This document shows, piece by piece, positions 953-34,883 of a stretch of DNA of 45,295 nucleotides. How positions within the stretch are numbered: the stretch's first letter is position 1; every line of letters begins with the position of its first letter. The translations under genes and the position numbers were made by a program. Below the pieces are notes generated by a model. The model was not told the DNA's origin. It searched no databases and was given only the letters and a program-made list of their open reading frames with translations. Where the stretch lies: assembly GCF_013036045.1 (NCBI RefSeq), contig NZ_WTPX01000022.1:1-45295 (forward strand), read 5' to 3'. This stretch comes from Alienimonas chondri (GTDB lineage Bacteria; Planctomycetota; Planctomycetia; Planctomycetales; Planctomycetaceae).

Positions 953-1888
953 ATGGCGACGCTCGCGCCGATCACCCCGGACCTGTTCCCGAAGCTCTAC
1001 GATGCGTTCCTGCGCGACGACGACCCGCTCTCCGGGGAGGCGGAGTGGCGGAACGTGTTCGACTACGCCTGGGAGAAGCCGGAGGGCCACGCCGGCTATG
1101 CGCTCTTGGAAGACGGCGAGGCGATCGGCTTTCTCGGCATGATCTTCAGCCGACGGACGGTGGACGGGCGGGAAGAACGGTTCTGCAATCTCCACACCTG
1201 GTGGGTCCGCGAGGACCGCCGCGGGCACAGCCTGGCGTTGCTGCGGCCGATCACGCGGCTGCGCGGTTACACGATCACTCACTTCACGCCGGGCGATCGG
1301 GTCCGCGCGGTGCTGCGACGTTTAGGCTTCGCGGACCTCAGTTCGCAGCTCACAATCCTCCCGCCGCCGGGTCGAATCGGACGGACGCCGGCGGGCGTCA
1401 CGCTGTCGTTCGACGCGGACGAGATTACGAACCGCGTCTCGGACGAGGAACGCCGCCTGCTGACCGATCACCGCCCCTACCCGGTGGAGCCGCTGTTGGT
1501 GGAGGAGGGCGGCGCCCGTTGTCTCGTGCTGCACGGCCACGTTCTGCGACACCGACTGCCCTACGTGCACGTCAGTTATTTCAGCGACCGGGATCTGTTC
1601 CTGAAGCGTGAGCCGGCGATCCGGGCGGCGCTGCTGGACCGGTATCAAGTGCGGTTCGCGGCGGTGGATACGCGGTTGGTTCCGGGCCTGCGGTTCCCTC
1701 GGGGGTTCAAGTTTTGGGCGCCGGCGAACGCGTTGTTCAAGTCGGAGCGCGTCCCGCCGGAGCGGATCGACAACCTGTACTCGGACGTCACGCTGCTGGC
1801 CCTCACGACCCTGCCGGACCTGACCCACGAGATCAGCGAGCGGGTCCGCCGCCTGTTCGGGCTGCCCTCAAACGCGGACCCGGCCTGA
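953..1888 (+). CDS. GNAT-fold acyltransferase, probably modifying the surface glycan
   Basis: This 311-residue protein starts at the ATG at 953; the open frame runs further upstream, but that part overlaps the previous gene and does not look like protein. The N-terminal half has a GNAT pattern: GYALLEDGEAIGFLGMIF (beta 2-3), then NLHTWWVREDRRGHSLAL, an equivalent of the acetyl-CoA-binding motif A, and VRAVLRRLGF. The C-terminal half (about residues 140-311) is unrecognised and may be a second acceptor-binding half, as in Fem-like proteins. Its position between a C-methyltransferase and CDP-glucose 4,6-dehydratase suggests it acylates an amino sugar or another part of the glycan. That role is inferred from context. 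Confidence 0.75.
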   Translation: MATLAPITPDLFPKLYDAFLRDDDPLSGEAEWRNVFDYAWEKPEGHAGYALLEDGEAIGFLGMIFSRRTVDGREERFCNLHTWWVREDRRGHSLALLRPITRLRGYTITHFTPGDRVRAVLRRLGFADLSSQLTILPPPGRIGRTPAGVTLSFDADEITNRVSDEERRLLTDHRPYPVEPLLVEEGGARCLVLHGHVLRHRLPYVHVSYFSDRDLFLKREPAIRAALLDRYQVRFAAVDTRLVPGLRFPRGFKFWAPANALFKSERVPPERIDNLYSDVTLLALTTLPDLTHEISERVRRLFGLPSNADPA

Positions 1889-1990
1889 GACGCCCCGTTC
1901 CGGCCGCCGTCTGGACGAGGGGCGGTCTTCGGGGCAGGATCGCCGTTCGAATCGCCCCTCCCGCCGTTCCCCAGCTTCCGTTTCATCGCG

Positions 1991-3175
1991 ATGTCCGACC
2001 CGTCCCCGCCCGCGCCGTTCGGCGGAGTCTTCGCCGGCCGCCGGGTGTTCGTCACGGGACACACCGGATTTAAGGGGAGCTGGCTCTGCCTGTGGTTGAA
2101 GCGGTTGGGGGCGGAGGCGACCGGGTACGCGTTCGACCCGCCGACCGACCCCAGTCATTTCGCCGCCGCCGGGATCAGCGACACGCTGGCCAGGGATCTC
2201 CGCGGGGACGTCCGCGACCGGGCCGCGCTGGCCGCGGCGATCGACGAGTGCGACCCGGACCTGATCCTGCACCTCGCGGCGCAGTCCGTGGTGCGGACGG
2301 GGTACGAAGAGCCGTTCGAGACGTTCGAGACGAACGTGATGGGCACCGCCGCGGTGCTCGAAGCGGTGCGGACGCGGTCCGCGACGTCCGGCGGGGCGCC
2401 GGTCTCGGTCGTCTGCGTGACCAGCGACAAGTGCTACGAGAACGTGGAACAGGTCTGGGGTTACCGCGAGACCGACCCGATGGGAGACCACGACCCTTAC
2501 GGCGGCAGCAAGGGGGCGGCGGAGTTGGCGATTCGGGCCTATCGGCATTCCTTCTTTCCGACCGAGCGGCTGGGCGAGCACGGCGTGCGGCTGGCGAGCG
2601 TGCGTGCCGGCAACGTGATCGGCGGGGGCGACTGGACCCGCGACGCGTTGATCGTCGATGCCGTCGCCGCCCTCCGCCGCGGGGAGTCGGTGGGGCTCCG
2701 CAGTCCCGGCGCCTACCGCCCTTGGCAGCACGTCCTGCAGGCGCTCGACGGCTATCTGACGAGCGCCGCCGCCCTGTTGACCGCCGACGCGAACGACGCG
2801 GAGCGGCTGTCGGCGGTTTGTTCGGGCTTCAACATCGGCCCGCTGCCCGGCCGCGCTTTGAACGTGCGGGAGGTGGTCGAAACCCTCGCCGCCGAATGGG
2901 GCGCCGGAGGCTGGGAGGACGTCAGCGACGGGAACCACCCGCGGGAGGCCGGCCTGTTGCACCTCTCGATTGACCGGGCGATGTGGGTTCTCGGTTGGAA
3001 GCCGGTCTGGGACGTGGACGAGGCGTTACGACAAACGGCCCGCTGGTACCGGGACTGCTTCTCCCTGGAGGACGCGGCCGGGGGCGACGCCGGCCCCGCG
3101 GCGGTGAGGGCGCTCTCGGAGCGGCAAATCGCCGGCTACGAGGCGGCGCTGGAGAACCGCCCGGCCGCCCGCTGA
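1991..3175 (+). CDS. rfbG: CDP-glucose 4,6-dehydratase
   Basis: This 394-residue extended short-chain dehydrogenase converts CDP-glucose to CDP-4-keto-6-deoxyglucose, the committed step to CDP-linked 6-deoxy and dideoxy hexoses. The NAD-binding motif GHTGFKGSW (residues 23-31) is the variant typical of CDP-glucose dehydratases. TSDKCYEN starts at 144 and the catalytic YxxxK pair is Tyr170/Lys174 in DPYGGSK. Later motifs ASVRAGNVIGGGDW and RPWQHVL also fit the family, and the length is only slightly above the usual 360 or so. It pairs functionally with the cytidylyltransferase at 8290, unusually separated from it by four genes. Confidence 0.95.
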   Translation: MSDPSPPAPFGGVFAGRRVFVTGHTGFKGSWLCLWLKRLGAEATGYAFDPPTDPSHFAAAGISDTLARDLRGDVRDRAALAAAIDECDPDLILHLAAQSVVRTGYEEPFETFETNVMGTAAVLEAVRTRSATSGGAPVSVVCVTSDKCYENVEQVWGYRETDPMGDHDPYGGSKGAAELAIRAYRHSFFPTERLGEHGVRLASVRAGNVIGGGDWTRDALIVDAVAALRRGESVGLRSPGAYRPWQHVLQALDGYLTSAAALLTADANDAERLSAVCSGFNIGPLPGRALNVREVVETLAAEWGAGGWEDVSDGNHPREAGLLHLSIDRAMWVLGWKPVWDVDEALRQTARWYRDCFSLEDAAGGDAGPAAVRALSERQIAGYEAALENRPAAR

Positions 3176-3229
3176 GGCCGCGGCTCGATTTCCGACCGCG
3201 ACGCGGCCTGACCGAATCGCCCGGCGAAA

Positions 3230-3251
3230 CCGACCGATCCCGCACGGTCGG
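3230..3251. promoter_or_regulatory. Inverted repeat after rfbG (hairpin or operator)
   Basis: Perfect 7-bp arms CCGACCG and CGGTCGG flank an 8-nt spacer, 54 nt after the rfbG stop and about 106 nt before the aminotransferase start. This 182-nt gap is the largest inside the glycan locus, so a weak terminator or internal promoter region is plausible. No U-run follows the stem. Confidence 0.3.
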
Positions 3252-3357
3252 CCGGTTCCGCCCGGTTCGCCTCGTTCTCCCAGGCGGCCCGAGCGTTCGA
3301 GGGGCGGATTGGCTCTAAGCTTGCGGACCGTCGCCTCACGCTCCGCAGTTCTACTTT

Positions 3358-4689
3358 ATGCCCGCCGCGTCCCCGCCCCGCCGCGTCTCTCCGGCGACGG
3401 ACGCCTTGCGGGAGCGGGCGCACGAACTGATCCCCGGCGGGTGCCACACCTATGCCAAGGGAGACGATCAGCTCTCCGCAAACGCCCCGCCGTTCATCGT
3501 TCGCGGACAGGGCTGCCACGTCTGGGATGCGGACGGCAACCGCTTTATCGAGTACGGCATGGGTTGCCGGGCCGTCGCGCTGGGGCATGCCTTCCCCGCC
3601 GTGCTGGACGCCGTCCGCAAACACCTGCCGACCGGCACGAACTTCACCCGCCCCCATCCGATCGAGGTGGAGTGCGCCGAAGAGCTGCTGGGCCTGATCG
3701 ACGGGGCGGAGATGGTCAAGTTCTGCAAGGACGGTTCGACCGCCACCACCGGCGCCCTGAAGCTGGCGCGCGCCCAGACCGGCCGGGAGAAAGTCGCCGT
3801 CTGCGGCGATCACCCGTTCTTCGCGATCCACGACTGGTTTATCGGAACCACCCCCTTCGACGCCGGCATCCCGCAGTGCGTCAAGGATCTCTCGCTGACG
3901 TTCCGCTACAACGATCCGGAGAGCCTTCGGGGGCTGTTCGAGGCGCACCCCGGCGAGATCGCCGCGGTCATCCTGGAGCCGGCTAAGTACGACGAGCCGG
4001 CGGACGGCTTTCTGCACAAGGTTCAAGCGTTGTGCCGCGAGCACGGGGCGGTGTTCGTGCTGGACGAGATGATCACCGGGTTCCGCTATCACTTGGGCGG
4101 AGCCCAGGCTCTGTACGGGGTGACGCCGGATCTGTCGACGTTCGGCAAGGCTCTGGCGAACGGGCATTCGGTCTCCGCGCTGGTCGGCAAGCGGAGCCTG
4201 ATGGAATTGGGCGGCCTGCGGCACGACCGGGAGCGGGTGTTCCTGCTCTCCACGACGCACGGGGCCGAGACCCACGCCCTCGCCGCGGCGATCGAGACGA
4301 TGCGCGTCTACCAGCGGGAGCCGGTCATCGAAACGATGGCCGAACGCGGGGCGCAGTTGCGGGACGGGATCGAGGCCGTCGCCCGGGAGCGCGGGCTGTT
4401 CGAGGCGATCCCGCTGTTCGGCCCGCCGTGCAATCTGGTGTTCGGCGCCCGCGACCGGGACGGGAACGCCAGCCAGGAGTTCCGCAGTCTGCTGATTCAG
4501 GAACTGATCCGCCGCGGCGTGCTGGGGCCGTCGCTGGTGATCTCCTATTCCCACAGCGAACGGGACGTGGAGGAGACCGTCGCCGCCTTCGACGGGGCGA
4601 TGGAGGTCTATCTGCGCGCTCTGGAGGACGGCGTGGGCGAATATCTCGTCGGGCCGCCGTCGAAGTCCGTCTATCGGAAGTTTAATTAG
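3358..4689 (+). CDS. Class III PLP aminotransferase, glutamate-1-semialdehyde aminomutase-like
   Basis: This 443-residue fold-type I PLP enzyme belongs to the class III (HemL-like) family. PLP-binding features are GSTATTGALKLAR (near 126-138), the LDEMITGFR segment with Asp236, and the Schiff-base lysine Lys264 in TFGKALANGHS. The C-terminus (GPPSKSVYRKFN) resembles the glycan-locus subgroup rather than heme-pathway HemL. Such enzymes in O-antigen clusters are usually annotated as glutamate-1-semialdehyde 2,1-aminomutase, but here a role in aminating a sugar or making an amino-acid-derived substituent is more likely. It may be the amino-group supplier for the neighbouring acyltransferase. The ATG at 3358 fits the conserved N-terminus. 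The exact substrate is unknown. Confidence 0.88.
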   Translation: MPAASPPRRVSPATDALRERAHELIPGGCHTYAKGDDQLSANAPPFIVRGQGCHVWDADGNRFIEYGMGCRAVALGHAFPAVLDAVRKHLPTGTNFTRPHPIEVECAEELLGLIDGAEMVKFCKDGSTATTGALKLARAQTGREKVAVCGDHPFFAIHDWFIGTTPFDAGIPQCVKDLSLTFRYNDPESLRGLFEAHPGEIAAVILEPAKYDEPADGFLHKVQALCREHGAVFVLDEMITGFRYHLGGAQALYGVTPDLSTFGKALANGHSVSALVGKRSLMELGGLRHDRERVFLLSTTHGAETHALAAAIETMRVYQREPVIETMAERGAQLRDGIEAVARERGLFEAIPLFGPPCNLVFGARDRDGNASQEFRSLLIQELIRRGVLGPSLVISYSHSERDVEETVAAFDGAMEVYLRALEDGVGEYLVGPPSKSVYRKFN

Positions 4690-4693
4690 TCCC

Positions 4694-6091
4694 GTGGCGA
4701 CCGCCCCCCCGCCGCCGATCGACGCCCCGGGCCGCGAGGCCGGCGACCGCATGCTCGCGCTGCTGACGGAACTGTTTCCGATCTGCCGGGCGAAGACGGG
4801 CGCGGGGGTGCGAGAGTCGTTGGCGCTCCTCGCCGACCGTCTGCCGACCGGCGGCGGGGAGTGGACGATGACGGAGGTTCCCACCGGCACGCCGATCCTG
4901 GATTGGGAGGTCCCGCCGGAGTGGAACGTCCGCGACGCGTTCCTCCGCGACCCCGCCGATCCGCCGGGCGTGCGCCTGGTCGACTTCGGCGAATCGAACC
5001 TGCACGTGCTCAGCGGCTCCGCCCCGGTCGACCGTCGCGTCTCGTGGTCCGAACTGCAGGGGCGTCTGCGGACCGCCCCGGGCCGGCCGGCGGACGTGCC
5101 GTTTCGCACCTGCGAACCGGGGGCGGACTGGGGTTTGTGCGTCTCGCAGGAGCAGTACGACGAACTCGCCGCCCGCGGGGAGCGGGAGTACGAACTGCGG
5201 GTCGACGCGACCGTTGCGGACGGTTCCCTCACCTACGCGGAGTTCGTCCTCCCCCCGACCGCACCGGCCCCGGACGGGCCGAACGAGGTGTTGATCTCCA
5301 CGCACGTCTGCCACCCATCGCTGGCCCACGACGGGGTCAGCGGAATCGCCGTGGCGACCGAATTGGCCCGGACCCTCGTCGAGCGTCCGCGGAGGCGGTT
5401 CTCGTACCGATTCCTGTTCGCGCCGGCGACGGTGGGGGCGATCGCCTGGCTGGCGGGGAACCGGGACTGTGCGGACCGGATGTTCGGGGGGCTGACGCTC
5501 GCCTGCTGCGGGGACGACGGGCCGTTCACGCTCCGCCGCAGCCGGCGGGGCGACTCCCCCGTCGACCGGGCCGCGGCGCACGTTTTGAAGACCTCCGGCG
5601 AACCGCACGAGGTGCGGGAGTTCGCGCCCTTCGGGTACGACCAGCGGCAGTTCTGCTCGCCGGGGTTCGACCTGCCGGTCGCCGCGTTGAGTCGCACGCC
5701 CGACGGCGAGTACCCGGAGTATCACACCTCCGCGGACGACCTGTCGCTCGTTTCCGCCGCGGGACTGGCCGGGGCGCTGGGCGTTTGCGCGGCGGTCTTC
5801 GACGTGCTGGAACGGGACCGCACCTGCCGGAACCTCAAGCCGTTCGGCGAGCCGCGTTTGGGGCCGAGCGGGCTGTACGCCGCGTTCGGCGCCGACCCGG
5901 CCGGGGCCGCGGCTCAGCGGGCGGTGCAGTGGGTCTTGAATCTGTCGGACGGGTCGCGGTCGCTGTTGGCGATCGCGGAGCGGTCCGGCCTGCCGTTCGC
6001 CGCCGTCGCCGCCGCCGCCGACGCCCTGCTCGCTCACGGTTTCCTCACGGACGATCGCTCCGCCGACCTATCTCTCGGATCTCACACATGA
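4694..6091 (+). CDS. DUF4910-type aminopeptidase-like protein with C-terminal winged helix
   Basis: This 465-residue protein starts at a GTG four nt after the previous stop. The core resembles M28-type zinc aminopeptidases of the DUF4910/DUF2172 group: a metal-binding ISTHVCHPSLAHDGVSG block (near residues 200-216), and EYPEYHTSADDL further on, which supplies another metal ligand. The last 70 or so residues (from AVQWVLNLSDGSRSLLAIAERSG) look like the small winged-helix domain common in this family. Such proteins recur in surface polysaccharide clusters without a proven reaction; removal of an aminoacyl or N-acyl group from a glycan precursor is one possibility. It overlaps the next gene by ATGA at 6088, so the two are probably translationally coupled. 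Confidence 0.82.
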   Translation: MATAPPPPIDAPGREAGDRMLALLTELFPICRAKTGAGVRESLALLADRLPTGGGEWTMTEVPTGTPILDWEVPPEWNVRDAFLRDPADPPGVRLVDFGESNLHVLSGSAPVDRRVSWSELQGRLRTAPGRPADVPFRTCEPGADWGLCVSQEQYDELAARGEREYELRVDATVADGSLTYAEFVLPPTAPAPDGPNEVLISTHVCHPSLAHDGVSGIAVATELARTLVERPRRRFSYRFLFAPATVGAIAWLAGNRDCADRMFGGLTLACCGDDGPFTLRRSRRGDSPVDRAAAHVLKTSGEPHEVREFAPFGYDQRQFCSPGFDLPVAALSRTPDGEYPEYHTSADDLSLVSAAGLAGALGVCAAVFDVLERDRTCRNLKPFGEPRLGPSGLYAAFGADPAGAAAQRAVQWVLNLSDGSRSLLAIAERSGLPFAAVAAAADALLAHGFLTDDRSADLSLGSHT

Positions 6092-7002
6092 CGGCCGTTT
6101 ATTTTAATGCCGACCACCCGGACGATCGCCGCCGGGAGAACCTCTACGCCGGGGCGATCTACGTCGACGCCGCCAACGCCGCCACGCGGGCGTTCTGCGC
6201 GTTCGCGCGAACGCTGTCCGAAGAGGCGTTCGCCCCGCACGACCCGCGGGACGCCCAGCACGTCCTGTCGGTCGATGAATATAACGCGGTCCTGAAGGAT
6301 CTGAAGCCGAAGTTCATCCACCACCCGGATAGTAAGACCCTCATCCGCGAGGTGCTGGCGGGGGCCGGATGCGACCTCGACCGCACCTACGCCGACGTGC
6401 CCCGGCTGCGGACGGCGACCTCCCACGGGTACCTCACCAGCGGACTGGCGTACGCCTTCAAACCGCACAGGGACACGTGGTACTCCCCGCCGCAGTGCCA
6501 GCTGAACTGGTGGCTGCCGGTGTACGAAATAGAGCCCGGCAACGCGATGGCCTTCCACCCGCATTATTGGGACCGGGCGATCCGAAACTCGTCGGCGGGG
6601 TTCAACTATCAGGACTGGCAGACCGGCGGTCGCAAAGCGGCTCACGACCAGGGAAAAAAGGACACGCGGGTGCAGTCCGAGGCGCTGGAGGAGCTGGAAT
6701 TAGAGCCGGCGTTGAAGCTGGTGCCGGAGCCGGGCGGGCTGATCGTGTTCTCGGCGGCGCATCTGCACTCGACCGTGCCGAACGAGACCGGGCGGACCCG
6801 GTTGAGCATCGACTTTCGTACGGTCCACCGGGACGATCTGGAGGCCGGCCGCGGCGCCCCCAACGTCGACAGCGCCTGCGGGGGGACCACGACGATGGAC
6901 TACCTGAGGGCCGCGGACTTCACGCACCTGCCGGAAGAACTGATCGACCGGTACGCCGAGTCCCGCCCGGACTGGGCCGACGCCCCCGCGGCGTTCGCCT
7001 GA
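6088..7002 (+). CDS. Fe(II)/2-oxoglutarate-dependent dioxygenase-like protein
   Basis: This 304-residue protein starts at the ATG at 6088, which overlaps the upstream TGA. It has the facial-triad pattern of the cupin-type 2OG oxygenases: an HxD in AFKPHRDTWYS (about His128 and Asp130) and a distal His in FSAAHLHSTVPNE (near 225), followed by RTRLSIDFR, whose Arg would bind 2-oxoglutarate. QLNWWLPVYEIEPGNAMAFHP between them resembles phytanoyl-CoA dioxygenase-like strands. It probably hydroxylates a sugar-nucleotide, lipid or ACP-bound intermediate in this locus; the substrate cannot be told from the sequence. The C-terminal tail (PEELIDRYAESRPDWA) is charged and not part of the fold. Confidence 0.8.
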   Translation: MTAVYFNADHPDDRRRENLYAGAIYVDAANAATRAFCAFARTLSEEAFAPHDPRDAQHVLSVDEYNAVLKDLKPKFIHHPDSKTLIREVLAGAGCDLDRTYADVPRLRTATSHGYLTSGLAYAFKPHRDTWYSPPQCQLNWWLPVYEIEPGNAMAFHPHYWDRAIRNSSAGFNYQDWQTGGRKAAHDQGKKDTRVQSEALEELELEPALKLVPEPGGLIVFSAAHLHSTVPNETGRTRLSIDFRTVHRDDLEAGRGAPNVDSACGGTTTMDYLRAADFTHLPEELIDRYAESRPDWADAPAAFA

Positions 7003-7059
7003 TCGCCCGTCGGCCCCGCAAAACCGACAGTCGCCGGCGGGGCCGCGCTGCGACAGCAA

Positions 7060-8247
7060 GTGGTGGACCTCGGCACTTCGCCGCTATGCGAGAACTTCCT
7101 GACGGCGGAAGAACTGAACCGGCCGGAGCCGTTCTACCCGCTGGCGGCGTACGTCTGCGGCGAGTGTTATCTGGTGCAGGTCGAGGAATACGTCAGCGGG
7201 CGGGAGATATTCGGCGGGGAGTACGCGTATTTCAGTTCGTTCAGCGACAGTTGGCTGAAGCACGCTGCCGACTACGCCGACCGGATGACCGACCGGCTCG
7301 GGTTGAACGCAGACAGCTTCGTGTTGGAACTGGCGAGCAACGACGGCTACCTGCTGAAAAACTTCGTGGCGAAGGGCGTACCCTGTCTGGGCGTCGAGCC
7401 GGCCGCGAACTGCGCGGCCGCCGCGGAGGAGCGGGGCGTGCCGACCCGCGTGATGTACTTCGGCGTGGAGGCCGCGCAGGAACTGGCCGCCGAGGGCGTC
7501 TCCGCCGACCTGATGGTCGCGAATAATTGCGCCGCCCACGTGCCCGACCTGAACGACTTTTTCGGCGGGATGCGGCTGCTGCTAAGGCCGGGCGGGGTCG
7601 TCACCGTCGAGGTCGCGCACTGGCTGACGATGCTGGAGGGCAATCAGTTCGATCAGATCTACCAGGAGCACTACTGCTACTTCTCGCTCTTGACGCTCCG
7701 CCGGGTGTGCGCCGCGCACGGGTTGACGCTGTACGACGTGGACGAGATCCCGACGCACGGCGGATCTCTGCGAATCTACGCCCGGCACGAGGCGGACGAT
7801 GCGAAACCCGTCACGTCGGCGGTGACCGACCTGATCGAGCGGGAAAAGGCCGCCGGGCTCACGGAGATGGCGACCTACGCCGCCTTCGGCCGCCGCGTCG
7901 AAGAGACGAAGCGTAAATTGTTGGAGTTCCTCATCGACGCCAAACGGGCCGGCAAGTCGATCGTCGGCTATGGAGCCCCGGGGAAGGGGAACACGCTGTT
8001 GAACTACTGCGGCGTGCGGACGGATTTCCTGGACTACGTCGTGGACCGCAACCCATATAAGCACGGCAAGTTCCTGCCGGGGACGCACATTCCCGTGTAT
8101 CCGACCGAGCGGATCGCGGAGACCAGGCCGGACCTCGTTCTGATCCTGCCTTGGAACTTGAAGGAAGAGATCGCCGCGCAACTGACCTACGTTCGAGAGT
8201 GGGGCGGCGCGTTGGCCGTCCCGATCCCGGAAGCGACCTACATCTAG
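7060..8247 (+). CDS. NDP-sugar C-methyltransferase with truncated N-terminal zinc domain
   Basis: This 395-residue protein belongs to the family of TylC3/NovU-type sugar C-methyltransferases. Order: partial zinc-binding domain (VDLGTSPLCENFL; Cys33/Cys36 in VCGECYLVQ), SAM-binding motif VLELASNDGYLL (from about residue 88), catalytic region YQEHYCYFS (near 200), and the C-terminal domain SIVGYGAPGKGNTLLNY ... VVDRNPYKHGKFLPGTHIP. It likely methylates C-3 (or C-5) of CDP-4-keto-6-deoxyglucose or a derivative. The first CxxC of the zinc site, normally about 20 residues before VDLG, is absent: upstream codons in this frame read KPTVAGGAALRQQ with no cysteine. A GTG at 7060 is the only conventional start after the in-frame stop at 7000. 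Confidence 0.9.
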   Translation: MVDLGTSPLCENFLTAEELNRPEPFYPLAAYVCGECYLVQVEEYVSGREIFGGEYAYFSSFSDSWLKHAADYADRMTDRLGLNADSFVLELASNDGYLLKNFVAKGVPCLGVEPAANCAAAAEERGVPTRVMYFGVEAAQELAAEGVSADLMVANNCAAHVPDLNDFFGGMRLLLRPGGVVTVEVAHWLTMLEGNQFDQIYQEHYCYFSLLTLRRVCAAHGLTLYDVDEIPTHGGSLRIYARHEADDAKPVTSAVTDLIEREKAAGLTEMATYAAFGRRVEETKRKLLEFLIDAKRAGKSIVGYGAPGKGNTLLNYCGVRTDFLDYVVDRNPYKHGKFLPGTHIPVYPTERIAETRPDLVLILPWNLKEEIAAQLTYVREWGGALAVPIPEATYI

Positions 8248-8289
8248 GCGCCCCCGTTTCCCCTCCCCCGCCCCGGTGATCCCGTCGCT

Positions 8290-9171
8290 ATGAAAGTCGT
8301 GCTGTTCTGCGGCGGATTCGGGATGCGCCTGCGGGAGTATTCGGAGTCGATCCCCAAGCCGCTGGTGGAGATCGGCGACCGGCCGATCCTGTGGCATATC
8401 ATGAAATACTATGCCCACTACGGGCATACGGATTTCATCCTCTGCCTCGGCTGGCGGGCGCGGGCGTTCAAGCAGTATTTCCTGGAGTACGACGAGTGCG
8501 TCTCCAATGACTTCACGCTGTCGTTCGGACCCGAACGCCGCGGCGTGGGCGAGCGCCGCGGCGCCGAAACGACGGCCGCGGGCGGTCGGCGGCACAGCCG
8601 CCGGGTGCATCTGGCGGGCCGCGACCTGGAGGATTGGAACATCACGTTCGTGGACACGGGAACGACCGCCTCGATCGGGGAGCGTCTGCGGGCGGTGCGC
8701 CCCCATCTCGACGGCGAAGAAACGTTCCTGGCCAACTACGCCGACGGCCTCGCCGACCTGCACCTTCCGGACCTGGTCCGGTTTCACCGGGAGCGGGAGG
8801 CGACCGCCAGTTTCCTGACGGTCAAGCCCTCTCAGACTTTCCATACCGTGGACATGGACGAACGTGGCCAGGTCCGGGAGTTGAGGGACGTGACTCAGAC
8901 CGACACCTGGATCAACGCCGGATTTTTCGTGCTGGACCAGGCGATCTTCGAGGCGCTGCGGCCGGGCGAGGATCTCGTCGCGGAGCCGCTGGAACGGCTG
9001 GCCCACGCCGGACGGCTCTCCGCGCTGCGGTACGAAGGGTTCTGGGGCTGCATGGACACGTTCAAGGAGAAACAAATGCTGGACGACCTCTACGCCGACG
9101 GAAACGCCCCCTGGGAGGTCTGGCGGCCCCGCGTCCCGGGCCCCGCGGTCCCGACCGCCGGCGGGCGCTGA
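8290..9171 (+). CDS. rfbF: Glucose-1-phosphate cytidylyltransferase
   Basis: This enzyme makes CDP-glucose from CTP and glucose 1-phosphate, feeding the dehydratase at 1991. The 293-residue protein has the nucleotidyltransferase signature FCGGFGMRLREYSESIPKPLVEIG at its N-terminus (shown in part), then PILWHIMKYYAHYGHTDFILCLGW and ANYADGLADL, where the family's metal-binding Asp sits. It is longer than the usual 257 or so residues: there is an Arg/Gly-rich insert near residues 82-106 and a short Pro-rich tail. The FKEKQMLDDLYADGNAPWEVW ending is typical of RfbF. It is followed after four nt by the PIG-L gene. Confidence in the reaction is high; CTP specificity is inferred from the family and the rfbG partner. 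Confidence 0.92.
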   Translation: MKVVLFCGGFGMRLREYSESIPKPLVEIGDRPILWHIMKYYAHYGHTDFILCLGWRARAFKQYFLEYDECVSNDFTLSFGPERRGVGERRGAETTAAGGRRHSRRVHLAGRDLEDWNITFVDTGTTASIGERLRAVRPHLDGEETFLANYADGLADLHLPDLVRFHREREATASFLTVKPSQTFHTVDMDERGQVRELRDVTQTDTWINAGFFVLDQAIFEALRPGEDLVAEPLERLAHAGRLSALRYEGFWGCMDTFKEKQMLDDLYADGNAPWEVWRPRVPGPAVPTAGGR

Positions 9172-9175
9172 TCCG

Positions 9176-9814
9176 GTGTTCCATCCCTCCCTGACGGGCG
9201 TGCGAGAGGTCCTGTGCCTCGGCGCCCACCCCGACGACATCGAGATCGGCTGCGGCGGCACGCTGCTGCGGTTGCTCGCGGAGAACCCCGGCGTGCGCGT
9301 CACCTGGGTCGTGTTCAGCGGCGAAGGGGAGCGCCGCGACGAGGCTCTGCGCGGGGCGGACCTGTTCCTGAACGACGCCGGCGAACGGGCCGTCCACGTC
9401 GAGCGTTTCCGGGACAGTTATTTCCCGTTCGACAGCGGCTTGAAGGATCGCTTCCACGAACTTGCCGCGGGCGTCTCGCCGGACATCGTGTTCACCCATC
9501 GCCGGGACGACGCCCACCAGGATCACCGGGCCGTCGCGGAACTGACTTGGTGCGCCTTCCGGGATCACTTGATCTTCGAGTACGAGATCCCGAAGTACGA
9601 GGGCGACCTCGCCCCGCCCAACCTGTTCGTGCCGCTGGACGCCTCCACCGCCGACCGAAAGATCGCGCAGCTGGCGGAGGCGTTTCCCTCGCAGGCGGCG
9701 CGGCGGTGGTTCACGGCGGACACGTTCCGCGGGCTACTGCGGCTGCGGGGCGTGGAGGCGAACGCCGTCAGCGGGGTGGCCGAGGCGTTTCACTGCCGGA
9801 AACTCGTGCTGTGA
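9176..9814 (+). CDS. PIG-L/LmbE family N-deacetylase
   Basis: This 212-residue protein starts at GTG 9176. It has the PIG-L zinc motif AHPDDIEIGCGG (AHPDD at residues 17-21) and the second metal/catalytic motif RRDDAHQDHRAV, where HxxH follows an Asp, as in MshB and GlcNAc-PI deacetylases. The expected reaction is zinc-dependent hydrolysis of an N-acetyl group on a sugar or sugar nucleotide. Together with the aminotransferase at 3358 and the GNAT at 953 it could swap one N-acyl group for another. It overlaps the next gene by GTGA at 9811. The deacetylase fold is clear; the acceptor is inferred. Confidence 0.88.
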   Translation: MFHPSLTGVREVLCLGAHPDDIEIGCGGTLLRLLAENPGVRVTWVVFSGEGERRDEALRGADLFLNDAGERAVHVERFRDSYFPFDSGLKDRFHELAAGVSPDIVFTHRRDDAHQDHRAVAELTWCAFRDHLIFEYEIPKYEGDLAPPNLFVPLDASTADRKIAQLAEAFPSQAARRWFTADTFRGLLRLRGVEANAVSGVAEAFHCRKLVL

Positions 9815-11148
9815 CGAACGCGTTGCTCGACCCGGCGACCGACCCGGCGACCGACCCGTCCCCGCCGGCGGCCGGCGTGCGGGGCGCGGTGCGGTCGGCG
9901 TGGAGGCGGTCCGCGTCCGATCCGGTCTTGGCGGTGTTGGATCAGGGGCTGGTCAGCGGGACGCGGTTCGTTACCACCGTGGCGGTCGGGCGGGCCGCGG
10001 GGGAGGAGGAGCTGGGCCTCTACTCCTTGGCGATGGCGGGATTGATCCTTGCCGGCGTGGCGCAGGAAGCGGTCGTGACCAAGCCGTACACCGTGCTGCG
10101 GGAGGGCGAGGTCGACTCCGACTACGCCGGCAGCGCACTGCTGCATCACGCCGCGTTGGGCGGGGGACTGGCCGTCGCATTGCTGGCGGCGGCGGGGATC
10201 GCGGCGGCGGCCGGGGCGGGAACCGCTGCGATCGTGCTCGCCGTGACGGCCGCCGCCGTCCCGCTGTCGCTGCTTTGGGAGTTCGCCCGCCGGATGAGCT
10301 TCGCCCATCTACGCCTGCGGTCCGCGTTGGCGGTGGACGGCGGCCTGGCCGCGCTGCAACTCGGGGCGTTGGCGGGATTGTGGGCGACCGGACGCCTGAC
10401 GGCGTTGACGGCGCTGGCGGCGACGGCGGCGGCGGGGCTGATCGCGGGATCGATCTGGCTGGCCCGGTCGCGGACCGTGTTCCGGCTGGGGACTGGCCGC
10501 GTCGGCGCGGACTGGCGGCGGAGCTGGCAGTTCGGTCGCTGGGTTCTGGCGGCGCAGCTGTGCGGCCAGGTGAACGGCAGCGCCCCGCAGTGGGTGCTCG
10601 CGGCGGCGGTCGGAATAGCGGCGACCGGACGGTTCGCGGCGGCGCAGAACGTCGTGCTGCTGTGCAACCCGTTGATTCTGGCCGTGGCGAGCCTGCTGGT
10701 CGCCCAGACCGCCGCCGCCCGCCGCACCGGCGGTCCGACAGCGGTCCGCCGCGTGGCGGTGCGGGCCGCGGTCGCGCTGACGGCCTTCGCCGGGCTGTTC
10801 TGGCTGGGTCTGCTGGTCGCCGCCGGGCCGCTGCTGGGACTGCTGTACGGGACCGAGTTCGCGTCCGCCGCGCCGGTTATCCTGCTGCTGGGGCTGGCGC
10901 CGCTGGCGTGGTCGGTCAGCACCGCGTTTGAGGCGGGGCTCTCCGCGATCGACCGGCCGGAAGTGGGATTCCGGGCGATGCTGGCCGGCCTGCTGACGAC
11001 CGTCGCGGCCGCCGTCCCGCTTTCGGCAATCTACGCCGCGCCGGGGGCCGGGGCGGCCGTTCTGCTGGGCAGCGCCGTCGCCGCGGTTGCCTTGGCCGTC
11101 CCCTTCCTCCGCCTCACCTCCGCAAGCCCCGCCCCCGAGCCCGCATGA
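9811..11148 (+). CDS. Wzx-like polysaccharide flippase (MATE/MVF-type membrane protein)
   Basis: This 445-residue protein starts at the GTG at 9811, overlapping the PIG-L stop, and ends overlapping the ACP start (ATGA). After a 40-residue soluble N-terminus there are roughly a dozen hydrophobic segments rich in Ala/Leu/Gly, with short Arg-rich cytoplasmic loops, matching the size and layout of O-antigen flippases. FGRWVLAAQLCGQVNGSAPQWVLAAAVG and FAAAQNVVLLCNP resemble the helix 7-8 region of this group. The role would be flipping lipid-linked oligosaccharide across the inner membrane. A 12-nt direct repeat at the start encodes DPATDPATDP and has no known role. Confidence 0.85.
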   Translation: MTNALLDPATDPATDPSPPAAGVRGAVRSAWRRSASDPVLAVLDQGLVSGTRFVTTVAVGRAAGEEELGLYSLAMAGLILAGVAQEAVVTKPYTVLREGEVDSDYAGSALLHHAALGGGLAVALLAAAGIAAAAGAGTAAIVLAVTAAAVPLSLLWEFARRMSFAHLRLRSALAVDGGLAALQLGALAGLWATGRLTALTALAATAAAGLIAGSIWLARSRTVFRLGTGRVGADWRRSWQFGRWVLAAQLCGQVNGSAPQWVLAAAVGIAATGRFAAAQNVVLLCNPLILAVASLLVAQTAAARRTGGPTAVRRVAVRAAVALTAFAGLFWLGLLVAAGPLLGLLYGTEFASAAPVILLLGLAPLAWSVSTAFEAGLSAIDRPEVGFRAMLAGLLTTVAAAVPLSAIYAAPGAGAAVLLGSAVAAVALAVPFLRLTSASPAPEPA

Positions 11149-11426
11149 CCGACGCCGCACCCGACCCCGCCGACGCGATCCGCGCATTCGTCCGCGAGCA
11201 GTTCCCTTTAGCCGCGCAGCGCGACCTGTCCGACGACGCCTCCCTGCTGGACAGCGGGGCGGTCGACTCGCTGGGCGTCCTGGACCTGGTCGGTTTTCTG
11301 GAGAGCCGCTTCGAGGTGCACGTCGAGGACGAAGAGGTCGTCGGCGAGCATTTCGAGTCCGTGGCCGCGATGGCCCGCTTCGTCGAGTCGAAGCGCGGCT
11401 CCGGGGCCGGGCGGGCGGAGAACTGA
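11145..11426 (+). CDS. Acyl carrier protein
   Basis: A 93-residue acidic carrier protein with the phosphopantetheine attachment site GAVDSLGVLDLV; Ser42 is the modified residue. Helix 1 (DAIRAFVREQF), the DDASLLDSG loop and the helix 3-4 region (VVGEHFESVAAMARFV) match the ACP/PCP fold. It starts within the flippase stop (ATGA) and is followed eight nt later by an AMP-forming ligase, then a PLP decarboxylase. This order suggests that the ligase charges the carrier and the decarboxylase makes or edits the tethered group, in the manner of DltA/DltC or of the exosortase-A-associated gene set. It is unlikely to be the housekeeping fatty-acid ACP because of the context. Confidence 0.9.
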   Translation: MTDAAPDPADAIRAFVREQFPLAAQRDLSDDASLLDSGAVDSLGVLDLVGFLESRFEVHVEDEEVVGEHFESVAAMARFVESKRGSGAGRAEN

Positions 11427-11434
11427 TCGGCCCG

Positions 11435-13036
11435 ATGGACTACCTCCTGCACCACACGCTGTTCTCCTCCGCCGCCCGCAGGCCTGATGCGGAGGCGCTG
11501 GTCGACAAGGACCGACGGCTGTCGTTCGGGCAGTTCGCCGCGGCGGCGGCCCGTTTGGGCAACGGGCTGCGGGGGTTGGGCGTACGGCGGGGGGACCGGG
11601 TCGCGATTTTTCTGGGACCTTCGCTCGAACTGCCGATCGCGATTTACGGCGTGAGCGCGGCGGGGGCGGCGTTCGTGCCGATCCACCACGGGCTGCGGCC
11701 GTCGCAGGTGGGCCACATCCTGCGGGACTGCGGCGTGCGGGTTCTCGTCACCGCCGCCGACCGACTGGGCGAACTGGCGGAGACGGCGGGCGGCTGCCCC
11801 GATCTGGAGCAGGTCGTTGCCGTCGGCGGGGCGGACGGCGCTCCGGGATTCCCCGCGCCGGTTCGTGACTGGGACGACCTGTGTCGCGCCGCGGACGCGA
11901 CGCCGCCGGCGGACGTCGGCGTGGACCGCGACCTCGGAGCGGTGCTGTACACGTCGGGTTCGACGGGATCGCCGAAGGGCGTGATGCTCTCGCACGCGAA
12001 CTTGCTCGCCGGGGCGTCGATCGTTTCGGACTACCTGTCGATCGTCGCGACCGACCGGCTGCTGGCGGCGCTGCCGTTCAGCTTCGACGCCGGTTTGAAT
12101 CAACTCACGACCGCCGTACGACAGGGGGCGGCGTGCGTGCTGATCCGGTTCGTGCTGCCGCGGGATCTGGTCCGCGTGCTCGGGGCGGAGCGAATCACCG
12201 GTTTAGCCGGCGTGCCGCCGCTCTGGGCGCGGCTGACGGCCCCGGGGGCCGGGCTGGCGGAGGCCGAACTGCCGGCGCTGCGGTACCTTACGAACACCGG
12301 CGGGGCGGTCTCGCGGGCGTTACTGGACAGGCTGCGGGCCGCGGCGCCGGCCGCGGACGTCGTGCTGATGTACGGGCTGACGGAAGCCTTCCGCTCGACC
12401 TACCTGCCGCCCGCCGAGTTGGACCGCCGACCGGATTCGATGGGGAAGGCGATCCCGAACACGGAGATCCTCGTCGTCGCCGAAGACGGTCGCCTCTGCG
12501 GACCCGGCGAGGTCGGCGAGTTGGTGCACCACGGGCCGACCGTCTCCCGCGGCTACTGGGGCCGGCCGGAGCAGACCGCGGCGGTCCTCCGCCCGCACCC
12601 GTTCCCCCCGCCCGGCGGGGCGGAGCCGGACCGGGTCTGCTACTCCGGCGACCTCGTGCGGACGGACGAGGACGGGTTCCTCTACTTCGTCGGCCGGCGG
12701 GACGGGCAGATCAAGACCAGCGGGTTCCGCGTCAGCCCCACCGAAATTGAGGCCGCCGTCGCCGCCGCCGACGGCGTGCGGGAGGCCGCGGTCGTCGGCG
12801 TGCCGGACGAAACGCTCGGCCAGCGGGTGATCGCGTTCGTCGCCCCCGCGGACGTCGACCCCGCCGCCGTCCGGGCCGCCTGCGCCGCGGCCCTGCCGGC
12901 CCACATGGTTCCCGGGGCCGTCGAACCCCGCGACGGTCTGCCTCGCACCGCCAGCGGCAAGACCGACTATCCCGCCCTCCGCACGGAAGCCGCGGCCCTG
13001 CACGGCCCCCCCGAAGAAACCGCCGCCGGTGCCTGA
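11435..13036 (+). CDS. AMP-forming acyl/aminoacyl ligase (exosortase-A-associated type)
   Basis: This 533-residue ANL-superfamily adenylating enzyme starts at ATG 11435. The ATP-binding P-loop YTSGSTGSPKGVMLSH begins at 172; LTNTGGAV and MYGLTEAFRSTYLPP follow (A4/A5), then SGDLVRTDEDGFLYFVGR (A7/A8), IKTSGFRVSPTEIE, and the catalytic lysine Lys509 in TASGKTDYP. It activates a carboxylate as an acyl-AMP and probably loads it on the ACP encoded just upstream. Sequence style and neighbours (ACP before, LysA-like decarboxylase after) match TIGR03098, the ligase class found with exosortase A. It overlaps the decarboxylase start by eight nt. The substrate is not readable from sequence here. Confidence 0.9.
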   Translation: MDYLLHHTLFSSAARRPDAEALVDKDRRLSFGQFAAAAARLGNGLRGLGVRRGDRVAIFLGPSLELPIAIYGVSAAGAAFVPIHHGLRPSQVGHILRDCGVRVLVTAADRLGELAETAGGCPDLEQVVAVGGADGAPGFPAPVRDWDDLCRAADATPPADVGVDRDLGAVLYTSGSTGSPKGVMLSHANLLAGASIVSDYLSIVATDRLLAALPFSFDAGLNQLTTAVRQGAACVLIRFVLPRDLVRVLGAERITGLAGVPPLWARLTAPGAGLAEAELPALRYLTNTGGAVSRALLDRLRAAAPAADVVLMYGLTEAFRSTYLPPAELDRRPDSMGKAIPNTEILVVAEDGRLCGPGEVGELVHHGPTVSRGYWGRPEQTAAVLRPHPFPPPGGAEPDRVCYSGDLVRTDEDGFLYFVGRRDGQIKTSGFRVSPTEIEAAVAAADGVREAAVVGVPDETLGQRVIAFVAPADVDPAAVRAACAAALPAHMVPGAVEPRDGLPRTASGKTDYPALRTEAAALHGPPEETAAGA

Positions 13037-14408
13037 CCCGCTCCCCCCGCACGTCGCCGCGCTGATTGCCCGACGGTTCCCGGACTCGACCGAGGAACTG
13101 GTCGTCGGCGGCGTGCCAGTCGGCGAGCTGGCCGAACGGTTCGGCACCCCGCTGTTCGCCTACGACGGCGGGATTTTGTCGGACGCGGTGCGGTCCGTCC
13201 GCGACACGCTGCCGGCCGGGTGGGAGCTGTTCTACTCGATGAAGGCGAATCCCGCCGCCGCGTTCCTGCGTTTCTTCCTCGGCCGGGGCTGCGGAATCGA
13301 GGTGGCCTCCGCCGGCGAACTGCGGCAGGCTTTGGATGCGGGCTGCGAGGCGAACGAAATCATCTTCGCCGGGCCGGGGAAGACGGATGCGGAACTGAGG
13401 CTCGCCGCGGAGGCGGGCGTCGGCGAGTTGCACCTCGAATCCGTCGGCGAGGCCCGCCGACTGGCCCGAATCGCGGCCGGCTCGCCGCTCCGCACCCGCC
13501 TGGCGGTGCGGGTGAACCCGGACGCCGCGGTGCAGGGCGGGGCGATGCGGATGGGCGGCCGGCCCAGCCCGTTCGGCGTCGACGAGGAGCGCTTCGAAGA
13601 CGCCGTCGACGAGAGCGAAGCCGCGGGATTGCAGGTCGACGGCCTGCATCTGTTCACCGGCACGCAGATCCTCGACGCGGACGTGCTGCTCGCCCAGTAC
13701 CGGCACGGATTCGCCCTCGCCCGCCGGCTCGCCGACCGGACCGGCCGGCCGGTCGGTACGGTGGACCTCGGCGGAGGGTGGGGCGTTCCGTACTTCCCGA
13801 ACGAAACCCCGCTGGACCTCCTCGCCCTTGCCGACGGACTGAGCGAACTCGAAGCCGACCGCGGCGCCGACCCGCGGTTGGCCGAGGCCCGTGTGGTCTT
13901 GGAACCGGGCCGGTTTCTCGCCGCCGAAGCCGGCGTCTACCTGACCCGGGTGACGGACGTGAAGTCCTCCCGCGGCAAGACGTTCGCGGTGCTGGACGGC
14001 GGGATGCACCATCACCTCGCCGCGTCCGGGAACCTCGGCCAGACGATCAAGCGGAATTACCCGCTCGCCGTCGTCAACCGGCTGCGGGAGGCGGCCGACG
14101 CCCCGGCCGAGCTGGTCGGCCCGCTCTGCACGCCGCTGGACATGCTCGGTCGGGCCGCGGCGGTCCCGGCTCCACGGGTCGGCGACCTGGTGGGGGTGTT
14201 TCAATCCGGAGCCTACGCTCGTACCGCCAGTCCGCTGGGCTTCCTCAGCCACGCCGCCCCGCCGGAACTGTGGGTCGAGGCCGGCGCCGCCCGCCTCATC
14301 CGCCGCCGCGGCACGCCCGCGGACCTCCGCGACGACCAGATCGACGCCCCCGACGAACCGCCCGCGGCCGGATCGACCGACGACGCCGAACACGATCCCG
14401 CTGTTTGA
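13029..14408 (+). CDS. PLP-dependent LysA/Orn-family decarboxylase (exosortase-A-associated type)
   Basis: A 459-residue fold-type III PLP enzyme starting at GTG 13029 inside the ligase's 3' end. The PLP lysine is Lys72 in FYSMKANP. GIEVASAGEL, HLFTGTQIL, TVDLGGGWGVPYFPNE (glycine loop for PLP phosphate), VLEPGRFLAAEAG and GPLCTPLDMLGR (catalytic Cys from the second subunit) follow in family order, and YARTASPLGFLSH closes the fold. Diaminopimelate or ornithine/lysine decarboxylases share this fold; position after ACP and ligase fits TIGR03099. It may make a (di)amine or act on an amino acid destined for the ACP. The last 30 residues are Asp/Pro-rich and disordered-looking. This is the last gene of the glycan unit. 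Confidence 0.9.
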   Translation: MPDPLPPHVAALIARRFPDSTEELVVGGVPVGELAERFGTPLFAYDGGILSDAVRSVRDTLPAGWELFYSMKANPAAAFLRFFLGRGCGIEVASAGELRQALDAGCEANEIIFAGPGKTDAELRLAAEAGVGELHLESVGEARRLARIAAGSPLRTRLAVRVNPDAAVQGGAMRMGGRPSPFGVDEERFEDAVDESEAAGLQVDGLHLFTGTQILDADVLLAQYRHGFALARRLADRTGRPVGTVDLGGGWGVPYFPNETPLDLLALADGLSELEADRGADPRLAEARVVLEPGRFLAAEAGVYLTRVTDVKSSRGKTFAVLDGGMHHHLAASGNLGQTIKRNYPLAVVNRLREAADAPAELVGPLCTPLDMLGRAAAVPAPRVGDLVGVFQSGAYARTASPLGFLSHAAPPELWVEAGAARLIRRRGTPADLRDDQIDAPDEPPAAGSTDDAEHDPAV

Positions 14409-27151: not shown

Positions 27152-27631
27152 ATGAACGTGCAGCTGCTGCAGTTCCGGGTCGGGGATCATCGGTTCGCTC
27201 TACGCATCGAGGCGGTGCGTGAAGTCTTGCGAGCCGTGGCGTTGACGGAGCCGATCGATCGTTCCCGTCGGATCGAAGGTCTGTTGAATCTGCGGGGCCG
27301 GACGTTGCCGGTGGTCGATCTACGCGGCGCCGTGGGGTTGCCCGAGAAGCCGATGGCGCTGACGGACGCACTGGTCGTCATCGACCATCAAGACGCCTCA
27401 TGGGCGCTGCGGGTGGACGGAGGGCTGACGACGATCGAAGCCGCCGCGGACGCCGTGCAGTCGTGCCGGCACTCGCCGGTGATGTCCGAATCGGTGCAGG
27501 CGGACGGCCGGGTGACGTTCCTGCTGGACCTGAACAAGTTGCGGGCACTGGTCGAATCGAGCGATCCGCTCCGCCGGGATCATGCGGGCGCCGGCCACGC
27601 GGAACCTGCCGCCGCGGGAGTCGTCGAATGA
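27152..27631 (+). CDS. CheW-type coupling protein (WspB-like)
   Basis: A 159-residue CheW-domain protein, first in the chemosensory operon. It opens LLQFRVGDHRFALRIEAVREVLRAV and contains IEGLLNLRGRTLPVVDLR, the classic CheW core that docks receptor tips to CheA. The last 30 residues are an extra Asp/Ala-rich tail. It overlaps the CheR start by ATGA at 27628. The order CheW-CheR-CheW resembles wspB-wspC-wspD in Pseudomonas, which supports a role as one of two scaffold adaptors. No SD-like sequence stands out. Confidence 0.9.
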   Translation: MNVQLLQFRVGDHRFALRIEAVREVLRAVALTEPIDRSRRIEGLLNLRGRTLPVVDLRGAVGLPEKPMALTDALVVIDHQDASWALRVDGGLTTIEAAADAVQSCRHSPVMSESVQADGRVTFLLDLNKLRALVESSDPLRRDHAGAGHAEPAAAGVVE

Positions 27632-29184: not shown

Positions 29185-29213
29185 GACGTCGGCCGACGCC
29201 GAGGCTCATGAGG

Positions 29214-29239
29214 GGCGCCGACGGGCGGTCGCCCGGCGC
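29214..29239 (+). promoter_or_regulatory. Intercistronic hairpin between CheR and second CheW
   Basis: GCGCC (29214-29218) pairs with GGCGC (29235-29239), enclosing GGGCG/CGCCC (29223-29234) with a small bulge. It lies in the 170-nt gap, the longest in the operon, and may pause or process the transcript. The remaining gap holds no gene. Confidence 0.3.
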
Positions 29240-29354
29240 GATGGGCGGGAAGGCCACGCGAATTTTGATTTGTTCCCGGTCCCCGCTGGCTCTCGGCCTC
29301 GGGAGGGCTGACAATGAGCGCCGACAAGGGTGAACCTCCCTCGGCTCCCGTTCC

Positions 29355-29954
29355 ATGATCCCGACCGACGCCGCGTCTGCGTCCAAGCTCGAGGGGCCGC
29401 CGCCCCGGGATCCGCAGGGTCAGGCGACCGGGTTGGCGGCTTCTCGGGAGGTCGAAGCGATTCTTGCCGAGCGGGCGAGAATACTGGCCAGGCCGGCGGA
29501 CGATTCCTCGGAATCGGAAGCGACGCGGGACGTGATCCCGTTTCAGTTCTCCGACGAACGATACGCGATCGAAGCGGAGTTGGTGCGGGAGGTGATCCGG
29601 CATCCGGCCGTCACGCCGATTCCCAACACGCCCGATTTTCTAAGAGGGATCTATAATCTGCGGGGCGAGATTCTGGCGGCGATGGACCTGCGGACGTTCC
29701 TGAACGTGTCCGCCGACAGGCCGATCGGCGAATGGCTGATCGTGTGCGGCCGCGATCGCAACGAGTTCGGCATCCTGGCCGACGTCGTGCTTGAAGTGCG
29801 GGCGCTGCCGCTCTCCGCCGTGATGAAGCCGCGCGCCGCGACCGCGGTCGGCGAGGGTTTGATTCGGGGGGTGACCGCGGACGCTTTGTCGCTGTTGGAC
29901 GGCGACGCCTTGATGCGGGATCAGCGCCTTTACGTCACCGGGGCAGAACGATGA
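29355..29954 (+). CDS. Second CheW-type coupling protein (WspD-like)
   Basis: A 199-residue CheW-domain protein with a 60-residue N-terminal extension containing the helix EVEAILAERARILARP, which is typical of WspD-like adaptors. The domain proper starts VIPFQFSDERYAIEAELVREVIR and includes FLRGIYNLRGEILAAMDLR. It probably forms part of the same receptor-kinase array as the first CheW, with different binding preference. A 58-nt gap with a hairpin and a strong SD-like GAAGGGGG precede the next gene (MCP), so stoichiometry may be tuned there. It is shorter than WspD of Pseudomonas by about 30 residues. Confidence 0.9.
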   Translation: MIPTDAASASKLEGPPPRDPQGQATGLAASREVEAILAERARILARPADDSSESEATRDVIPFQFSDERYAIEAELVREVIRHPAVTPIPNTPDFLRGIYNLRGEILAAMDLRTFLNVSADRPIGEWLIVCGRDRNEFGILADVVLEVRALPLSAVMKPRAATAVGEGLIRGVTADALSLLDGDALMRDQRLYVTGAER

Positions 29955-29955
29955 A

Positions 29956-29985
29956 CGGCGCCGACCGACCCAAAGCGAGGCGCCG
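29956..29985 (+). promoter_or_regulatory. Inverted repeat ahead of the MCP gene
   Basis: CGGCGCC (29956-29962) and GGCGCCG (29979-29985) are perfect 7-bp arms, 16 nt apart, directly after the CheW stop codon. The MCP ribosome-binding site (AAGGGGG near 29999) is just downstream and left free. It may stabilise the upstream mRNA end. Confidence 0.3.
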
Positions 29986-30012
29986 CGAACATGACTTGAA
30001 GGGGGACCGACC

Positions 30013-32472: not shown

Positions 32473-32474
32473 CG

Positions 32475-34859: not shown

Positions 34860-34883
34860 TGAAATCTCTTCGAGGCCCGAGCG

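Follow-up and report, generated by a model that had tools for sequence, protein, structure and literature searches.

Several described systems decarboxylate an amino acid while it is bound to a carrier protein. Two examples are the VinN/VinL/VinO set of vicenistatin biosynthesis and the AfcQ/AfcK/AfcP set of the Burkholderia lipopeptide AFC-BC11. AfcQ loads L-aspartate (L-Asp) onto AfcK, where AfcP decarboxylates it to beta-alanine in vitro (PMC12186527), and BtrK of butirosin biosynthesis acts on the thioester of an acyl carrier protein, or ACP (PMC7756342). The NCBIfam families TIGR03098 and TIGR03099 are both hypothetical equivalogs, and many genes, including those of the symbiont Sinorhizobium meliloti, take from them the label 'exosortase A' without a function; no paper assigning a function to the pair was found in the openly licensed literature, which is not proof that none exists. 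The window analysed here, that is, the whole stretch from base 1 to base 45,295 on contig C135 of Alienimonas chondri (assembly of 5.3 Mb, 97.35% complete), carries adjacent genes for an ACP, an AMP-forming ligase and a pyridoxal phosphate (PLP) decarboxylase related to this pair. Their sequences make it likely that the three proteins convert an amino dicarboxylic acid into a beta-aminoacyl-ACP, a reading that gives the gene pair a testable function and detaches it from exosortases.

A sequence-only reading had recognized this trio inside a CDP-sugar locus, and family scores and spacing bear it out. The flippase-like gene and the ACP gene overlap by 4 bp, 8 bp separate the ACP and ligase genes, and the ligase frame (ATG at 11435, stop at 13036) overlaps the decarboxylase frame (GTG start at 13029, end at 14408) by 8 bp. 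The ACP motif GAVDSLG, read from the sequence, holds the phosphopantetheine serine, and the best NCBIfam match of this protein is ACP_for_OlsHI (45.4 bits, under the cut-off of 130). The same arrangement recurs elsewhere. A scan of bacterial and archaeal genomes with a decarboxylase alignment was evaluated for the best 80 loci of a longer list, many of them metagenome bins, with Methylobacterium and Agrobacterium over-represented; the titles name Planctomycetota, Acidobacteria, Nitrospira, Gemmatimonadetes, Rokubacteria, Actinomycetes, Cyanobacteria, Proteobacteria and Myxococcales. The ligase gene directly precedes the decarboxylase gene in 77 of the 80 loci and an ACP gene lies nearby in 68, so the trio is not a chance grouping. 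In a sample of 294 genomes of the phylum, including that of A. chondri, the cut-off of TIGR03098 is passed in six genomes and that of TIGR03099 in none. The decarboxylase scores in this sample form two groups, nine places at 330-450 bits and the other listed places at no more than 273, and the other 16 genomes of the same family have no listed match above 245 bits, so the trio is sporadic in the family.

The ligase scores 622.1 bits on TIGR03098 and 314.1 on its second-best NCBIfam family, a generic CoA ligase; the trio assignment therefore survives the proposed check against a generic fatty acyl-CoA ligase. Over its whole length, the highest-scoring solved structures are linear gramicidin synthase subunit A (293 bits), another peptide synthetase (253) and, first among the stand-alone enzymes, VinN (207); a 23-row ligase family profile ranks whole chains in the same order. 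Within the A4-A5 pocket segment, only VinN chains (3wv4/3wvn) match at E<=1e-9. The VinN pocket residues D230, S299 and R331, whose roles are taken from PMC7756342 and whose numbers in the structure chains are 16 higher, align with D218, T288 (Ser to Thr) and R320 of the ligase. Among the relatives whose match covers the respective site, all 74 keep the pocket Arg, all 73 keep N[ST]GG, and 69 of 71 have the A4 Asp, the other two being unmatched by the pattern. Of three further AMP ligases encoded in this genome, two lack the pocket Arg and the third gave no motif.

A Burkholderia arboris replicon (locus L179) encodes a ligase in which 192 residues separate the pocket Arg from the catalytic Lys, the same distance as between Arg311 and Lys503 of AfcQ (PMC12186527), and from this equal spacing we infer that it is the AfcQ orthologue. 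It shares FDAG, NTGG and TEAFR with the window ligase and, with its N-terminus missing, scores 600.1 bits on TIGR03098, above the cut-off of 592.35. The earlier statement that the chemistry is not established for any member is therefore probably out of date, AfcQ having been reconstituted in vitro. Both family cut-offs are passed at a second Burkholderia locus (L177), in S. meliloti (L176) and in Roseateles (L172). As a separate observation, loci of other planctomycetes (L091:9672-11501; L015-L018, L013, L021 and L026) encode a ligase with VinN's own TECKR motif. By eye, L091 has an ACP-like gene directly before this ligase, an asparagine-synthetase-like gene upstream and no BtrK-like decarboxylase nearby; such loci are possibly a related system without decarboxylation.

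The decarboxylase has TIGR03099 as its best family (449.6 bits) and reaches about 258.7 bits on lysA (TIGR01048), under the cut-off of 297.9. Among solved structures it matches BtrK (7ru7/2j66) at 284 bits and the best diaminopimelate (DAP) decarboxylase at 157. In place of LysA's GP[IV]CES it has GPLCTPLD, and GPLCTP, common to BtrK, is present in 79 of the 80 scan loci. Of ten planctomycete LysA-type rows examined, nine carry GP[IV]CES; the tenth, with GSLCEN, is encoded on contig C334 of the same genome. This C334 gene scores 273.5 bits on TIGR01048, under the cut-off and above the window gene, which is therefore not the only lysA-like gene; the proposed check for a plain DAP decarboxylase (sole genomic lysA) thus leaves the trio assignment standing as well. 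The pattern G[SP]xC is unmatched in the S. meliloti, L177, L161 and AfcP-like decarboxylases, so the motif is not universal. In a 35-row tree, in which BtrK and Aquifex LysA are represented by aligned stretches, 11 LysA-type rows form a clade (support 100/99) apart from the window decarboxylase, which groups with BtrK (89/94); where BtrK belongs inside that group has little support (83/77). Two rows, AfcP-like and C334, have long branches; the former, like four planctomycete GPLCTSLD rows, belongs to neither the LysA nor the BtrK group. By analogy with BtrK, the window enzyme would act on an ACP-bound amino acid.

The earlier gene inventory, correct for the trio, overlooked a fourth gene, a tandem GNAT at 953-1888. 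GNAT homologues lie just downstream of the decarboxylase in L113, L097, L094, L111, L093 and L105; at other loci they are upstream of the ACP. A GNAT gene is found near the trio in 46 of the 80 loci, 31 with the window type and 15 with another type. For the 59 loci whose sequence extends 4 kb or more upstream and 2.5 kb or more downstream, a ligase directly precedes the decarboxylase in 57, an ACP lies nearby in 56 and a GNAT in 36, by ACP and GNAT profiles built partly from the scan loci themselves. The window GNAT is a more distant homologue of the alphaproteobacterial near-trio gene profile (cluster 3, E 1e-22), and the 'hypothetical protein' adjoining the ligase in S. meliloti and Aureimonas belongs to this GNAT family (E 1.1e-56 and 3.8e-51). 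PF00583 matches the window protein at 20.7 bits, only at the cut-off and with a later start. Its sequence profile gave nothing convincing among solved structures (best E 0.014, an unrelated protein), so fold comparison was used. The AlphaFold2 model (mean pLDDT 88.6) has a tandem-GNAT-like fold, with a GNAT as best Foldseek match (E 2.1e-9). It aligns with a fungal glucosamine N-acetyltransferase region (VIA-align Z 14.9, root-mean-square deviation 4.6, 252 aligned) and with a Clostridium glucosamine N-acetyltransferase (Z 14.0, deviation 4.4, 253 aligned). These scores are tied with those of N-myristoyltransferases and other GNAT folds, and the shared fold does not reveal the acceptor.

Two gene rows outside the planctomycetes can be recorded here. 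On the 1.66 Mb replicon of S. meliloti (L176:16917-20947), GNAT, ligase, decarboxylase and ACP stand under 'exosortase A' or 'hypothetical' names, in a polysaccharide region with glycosyltransferases and an O-antigen ligase gene. In a Myxococcales locus (L161:8684-11299), GNAT, ACP and decarboxylase are in a row and no ligase was found within the locus; loading there may depend on a different kind of enzyme or on one encoded elsewhere.

In the proposed mechanism, the ligase would adenylate L-Asp on its side-chain (beta-) carboxylate and load it onto the arm of the ACP, as the pocket and the close relatives suggest. The PLP decarboxylase would remove the alpha-carboxylate of the ACP-bound Asp, following the precedent of BtrK, VinO and AfcP, and yield beta-alanyl-S-ACP. 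Linkage and fold point to the tandem GNAT as the enzyme that would transfer the beta-alanyl moiety to an amine, probably one on the amino sugar made by the CDP-glucose and aminotransferase enzymes, and the flippase would then export the beta-alanylated glycan. Beta-alanyl-ACP is the most likely product, and L-Asp is modestly favoured as substrate over L-glutamate (L-Glu) or a substituted Asp. For transfer by the modelled GNAT to a sugar amine, the case is evenly balanced. The earlier suggestion that the ACP-tethered group is meant for the glycan is judged probably right. More generally, the ligase and decarboxylase of this gene pair may provide the donor in a widespread module of four genes for glycan aminoacylation (tandem GNAT, ACP, VinN-type ligase and BtrK-type decarboxylase) that places beta-alanyl groups, perhaps short beta-alanine chains such as AfcQ makes, on surface-polysaccharide amino sugars in many phyla. 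This generalization is tentative, somewhat less likely than not. If the pair does serve beta-aminoacyl-ACP chemistry, bacterial polysaccharides would be expected to carry cationic beta-alanyl groups, which composition analysis could reveal directly.

Several observations weigh against this reading. The members in glycan loci are known from their genes, and their chemistry is predicted. Neither GNAT type was found near the trio in 34 of the 80 loci, and in the window 9 kb separate the GNAT and ACP genes. Of the 80 loci, just 15 match any of 15 neighbour-gene seeds, which are few and specific; this result would neither favour nor exclude a glycan context elsewhere, and a glycan acceptor is left as a candidate for most loci. 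The relationship to TIGR03098 and TIGR03099, proposed earlier for both proteins, holds in full for the ligase, whereas the decarboxylase stays under its cut-off of 478.45 bits. Ligases of Agrobacterium (L143, 565.5 bits) and Methylobacterium (L129, 528.7 bits) are under that of TIGR03098. Over the full ligase, a nonribosomal peptide synthetase (NRPS) domain outscores VinN, which is the nearest match solely for the pocket segment and when stand-alone enzymes are compared. The position following the A4 Asp is occupied by Ala in the window ligase and in L179, by Phe in VinN and, among 71 relatives, by Tyr in 42, Ala in 26 and Val in one, so substrates may differ between subgroups. The presumed identity of the L179 ligase with AfcQ is drawn from residue spacing alone, and the AfcP-like protein encoded at L179 shares only 33% identity with the window decarboxylase, has no NCBIfam match at 1e-60 and forms a very long branch in the tree.

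Other products and fates have to be weighed against beta-alanylation of a glycan. If L-Glu were the substrate, gamma-glutamyl-ACP would be decarboxylated to 4-aminobutyryl (GABA)-ACP, as in butirosin biosynthesis, and GABA would be put on the glycan. BtrK, the closest solved decarboxylase, does use glutamyl-ACP, and an Ala in place of VinN's Phe next to the A4 Asp could accommodate one more carbon. The pocket motifs are, however, the same as in L179, whose presumed counterpart AfcQ takes L-Asp (PMC12186527), and VinN, the closest pocket match, takes 3-methyl-Asp (PMC11284099), which makes the L-Glu version rather unlikely. A similarly low probability is given to a beta-aminoacyl-ACP destined for a lipid, peptide or small metabolite, with the genes merely located in a glycan locus. 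The same enzyme types feed lipopeptides in Burkholderia (PMC12186527), and the trio seems, by eye, to stand alone in several Methylobacterium loci. On a Streptomyces decoyicus plasmid (L180:3594-7616), a BtrK-like decarboxylase and an ACP lie beside an NRPS and a beta-ketoacyl-ACP synthase III (KAS III)-type gene, in a bolagladin/AFC-like logic. Against such a fate, the window trio stands tightly packed with CDP-sugar and flippase-like genes in a single operon-like run, several of its neighbours recur in L097 and L113, and the S. meliloti copy has the glycan surroundings described above. Ordinary metabolism, that is, a DAP decarboxylase beside a fatty acyl-CoA ligase, would fit the LysA fold and the AMP-ligase superfamily. 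It is scarcely credible in view of the scores under the lysA and CoA-ligase cut-offs, the preference for BtrK, the change of LysA's CES to CTP, the amino-acid-binding Asp and Arg in the ligase pocket and the separate lysA-like gene.

A role as exosortase A accessory genes serving PEP-CTERM/exosortase sorting has the NCBIfam names on its side and is very improbable. The sequence-only reading had typed the trio as exosortase A and had seen no exosortase in view. The second point is correct: in the assembly, at the completeness given above, the single PF09721 match lies on another contig (C324). As to the typing, the sole exosortase found is XrtU (114.1 bits, cut-off 40) and not XrtA (85.0 bits, under the cut-off of 208). 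For 50 of the 80 scan loci the genome was searched with PF09721, assembly completeness not being told: an exosortase was found in 19 (one weak, 28 bits) and none in 31, including all 24 alphaproteobacterial genomes searched, and the label 'exosortase A' is for that reason misleading. Of 15 planctomycete genomes selected from the phylum sample, 12 have a PF09721 match, which favours a link; G050, the genome with the highest TIGR03098 score of that sample, gave none. In the flanking sequence retrieved, at most 10 kb on each side, a home-made profile that recovered the exosortase of A. chondri found one at 2 of the 80 loci. A general exosortase link is not supported, and an exosortase is not needed for the module. 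A NusG-type antiterminator-like gene was seen by eye near XrtU (L092:5063-7240 on C324).

The trio closes an operon-like run of 12 genes on the + strand, from 953 to 14408, with intergenic gaps of -28 to 182 bp. The genes are listed in their order in the table. The aminotransferase is a possible source of the sugar amine, and the RfbF-like protein has an apparent insertion. Further along the window, a chemotaxis-type cluster (27400-35915) comprises CheR with TPR, a methyl-accepting chemotaxis protein with PAS and HAMP, a CheA/CheW/receiver hybrid and CheB.

Table. Genes of the operon-like run, in gene order, with the basis of each assignment.
Feature	Positions	Strand	Basis
Tandem-GNAT acyltransferase (candidate)	953..1888	+	linkage to trio elsewhere; predicted GNAT fold
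CDP-glucose 4,6-dehydratase (RfbG)	1991..3175	+	TIGR02622 408.3 bits (cut-off 278.45)
Aminotransferase, glutamate-1-semialdehyde aminomutase type	3358..4689	+	NF004856 676.4 bits (cut-off 486)
DUF4910/DUF2172/HTH_47 protein	4694..6091	+	PF16254 295.1 bits
2-Oxoglutarate (2OG)-Fe(II) oxygenase-like protein (weak)	6088..7002	+	PF13759 23.6 bits, under cut-off 27
Sugar C-methyltransferase	7060..8247	+	PF08484 228.8 bits; PF08421; PF13489
Glucose-1-phosphate cytidylyltransferase-like (RfbF)	8290..9171	+	TIGR02623 222.5 bits, under cut-off 300.25
PIG-L family deacetylase	9176..9814	+	PF02585 63.0 bits
MOP-type polysaccharide flippase-like protein (weak)	9787..11148	+	PF01943 26.3 bits, just under cut-off 28.2
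ACP, 93 aa, DSL phosphopantetheine site	11145..11426	+	PF00550 29.1 bits (cut-off 20.8)
AMP-forming, VinN-type amino-acid:ACP ligase (predicted)	11435..13036	+	TIGR03098 622.1 bits (cut-off 592.35)
PLP decarboxylase, LysA fold, BtrK-like	13029..14408	+	TIGR03099 449.6 bits (cut-off 478.45 not reached)

Compared with the described systems, the window trio would represent a variant of known chemistry. The AFC-BC11 set resembles it in having a stand-alone VinN-type ligase, a free ACP and a PLP decarboxylase, and differs in its lipopeptide context with KAS III and fatty acyl-AMP ligase (FAAL) partners (PMC12186527). AfcQ also chains several Asp/beta-Ala units (PMC12186527), which the window ligase is not known to do, and the AfcP-like protein from L179 is no more than a distant relative of the window decarboxylase. 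The vicenistatin set likewise combines a stand-alone adenylation enzyme, a free ACP and decarboxylation on the ACP, but the substrate of VinN is 3-methylaspartate and the product primes a polyketide synthase (PMC11284099). The A5 motif is TECKR in VinN and TEAFR in the window ligase. BtrK, named L-glutamyl-[BtrI ACP] decarboxylase after the butirosin ACP BtrI, is the closest solved relative of the window decarboxylase and differs in converting Glu to GABA. The butirosin loading enzyme, BtrJ, is a ligase of another type than the window ligase. The 'exosortase A system-associated' pair TIGR03098/TIGR03099 is similar in being the best-scoring families of adjacent genes, and unlike the window system in that the decarboxylase is under its cut-off, no XrtA was found in the genome and many relatives' genomes gave no exosortase match. 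The analogy with DltA/DltC drawn in the sequence-only reading fits in part, closer precedents being VinN/VinL/VinO, AfcQ/AfcK/AfcP and BtrK. D-alanylation by the Dlt system, as proposed here for the window, uses an ACP-tethered amino acid for an envelope polymer; it involves no decarboxylation, and transfer is by DltB and not by a GNAT. If the four-gene module is real, it would be a counterpart of Dlt whose beta-amino acid carries a positive charge and is produced on the carrier.

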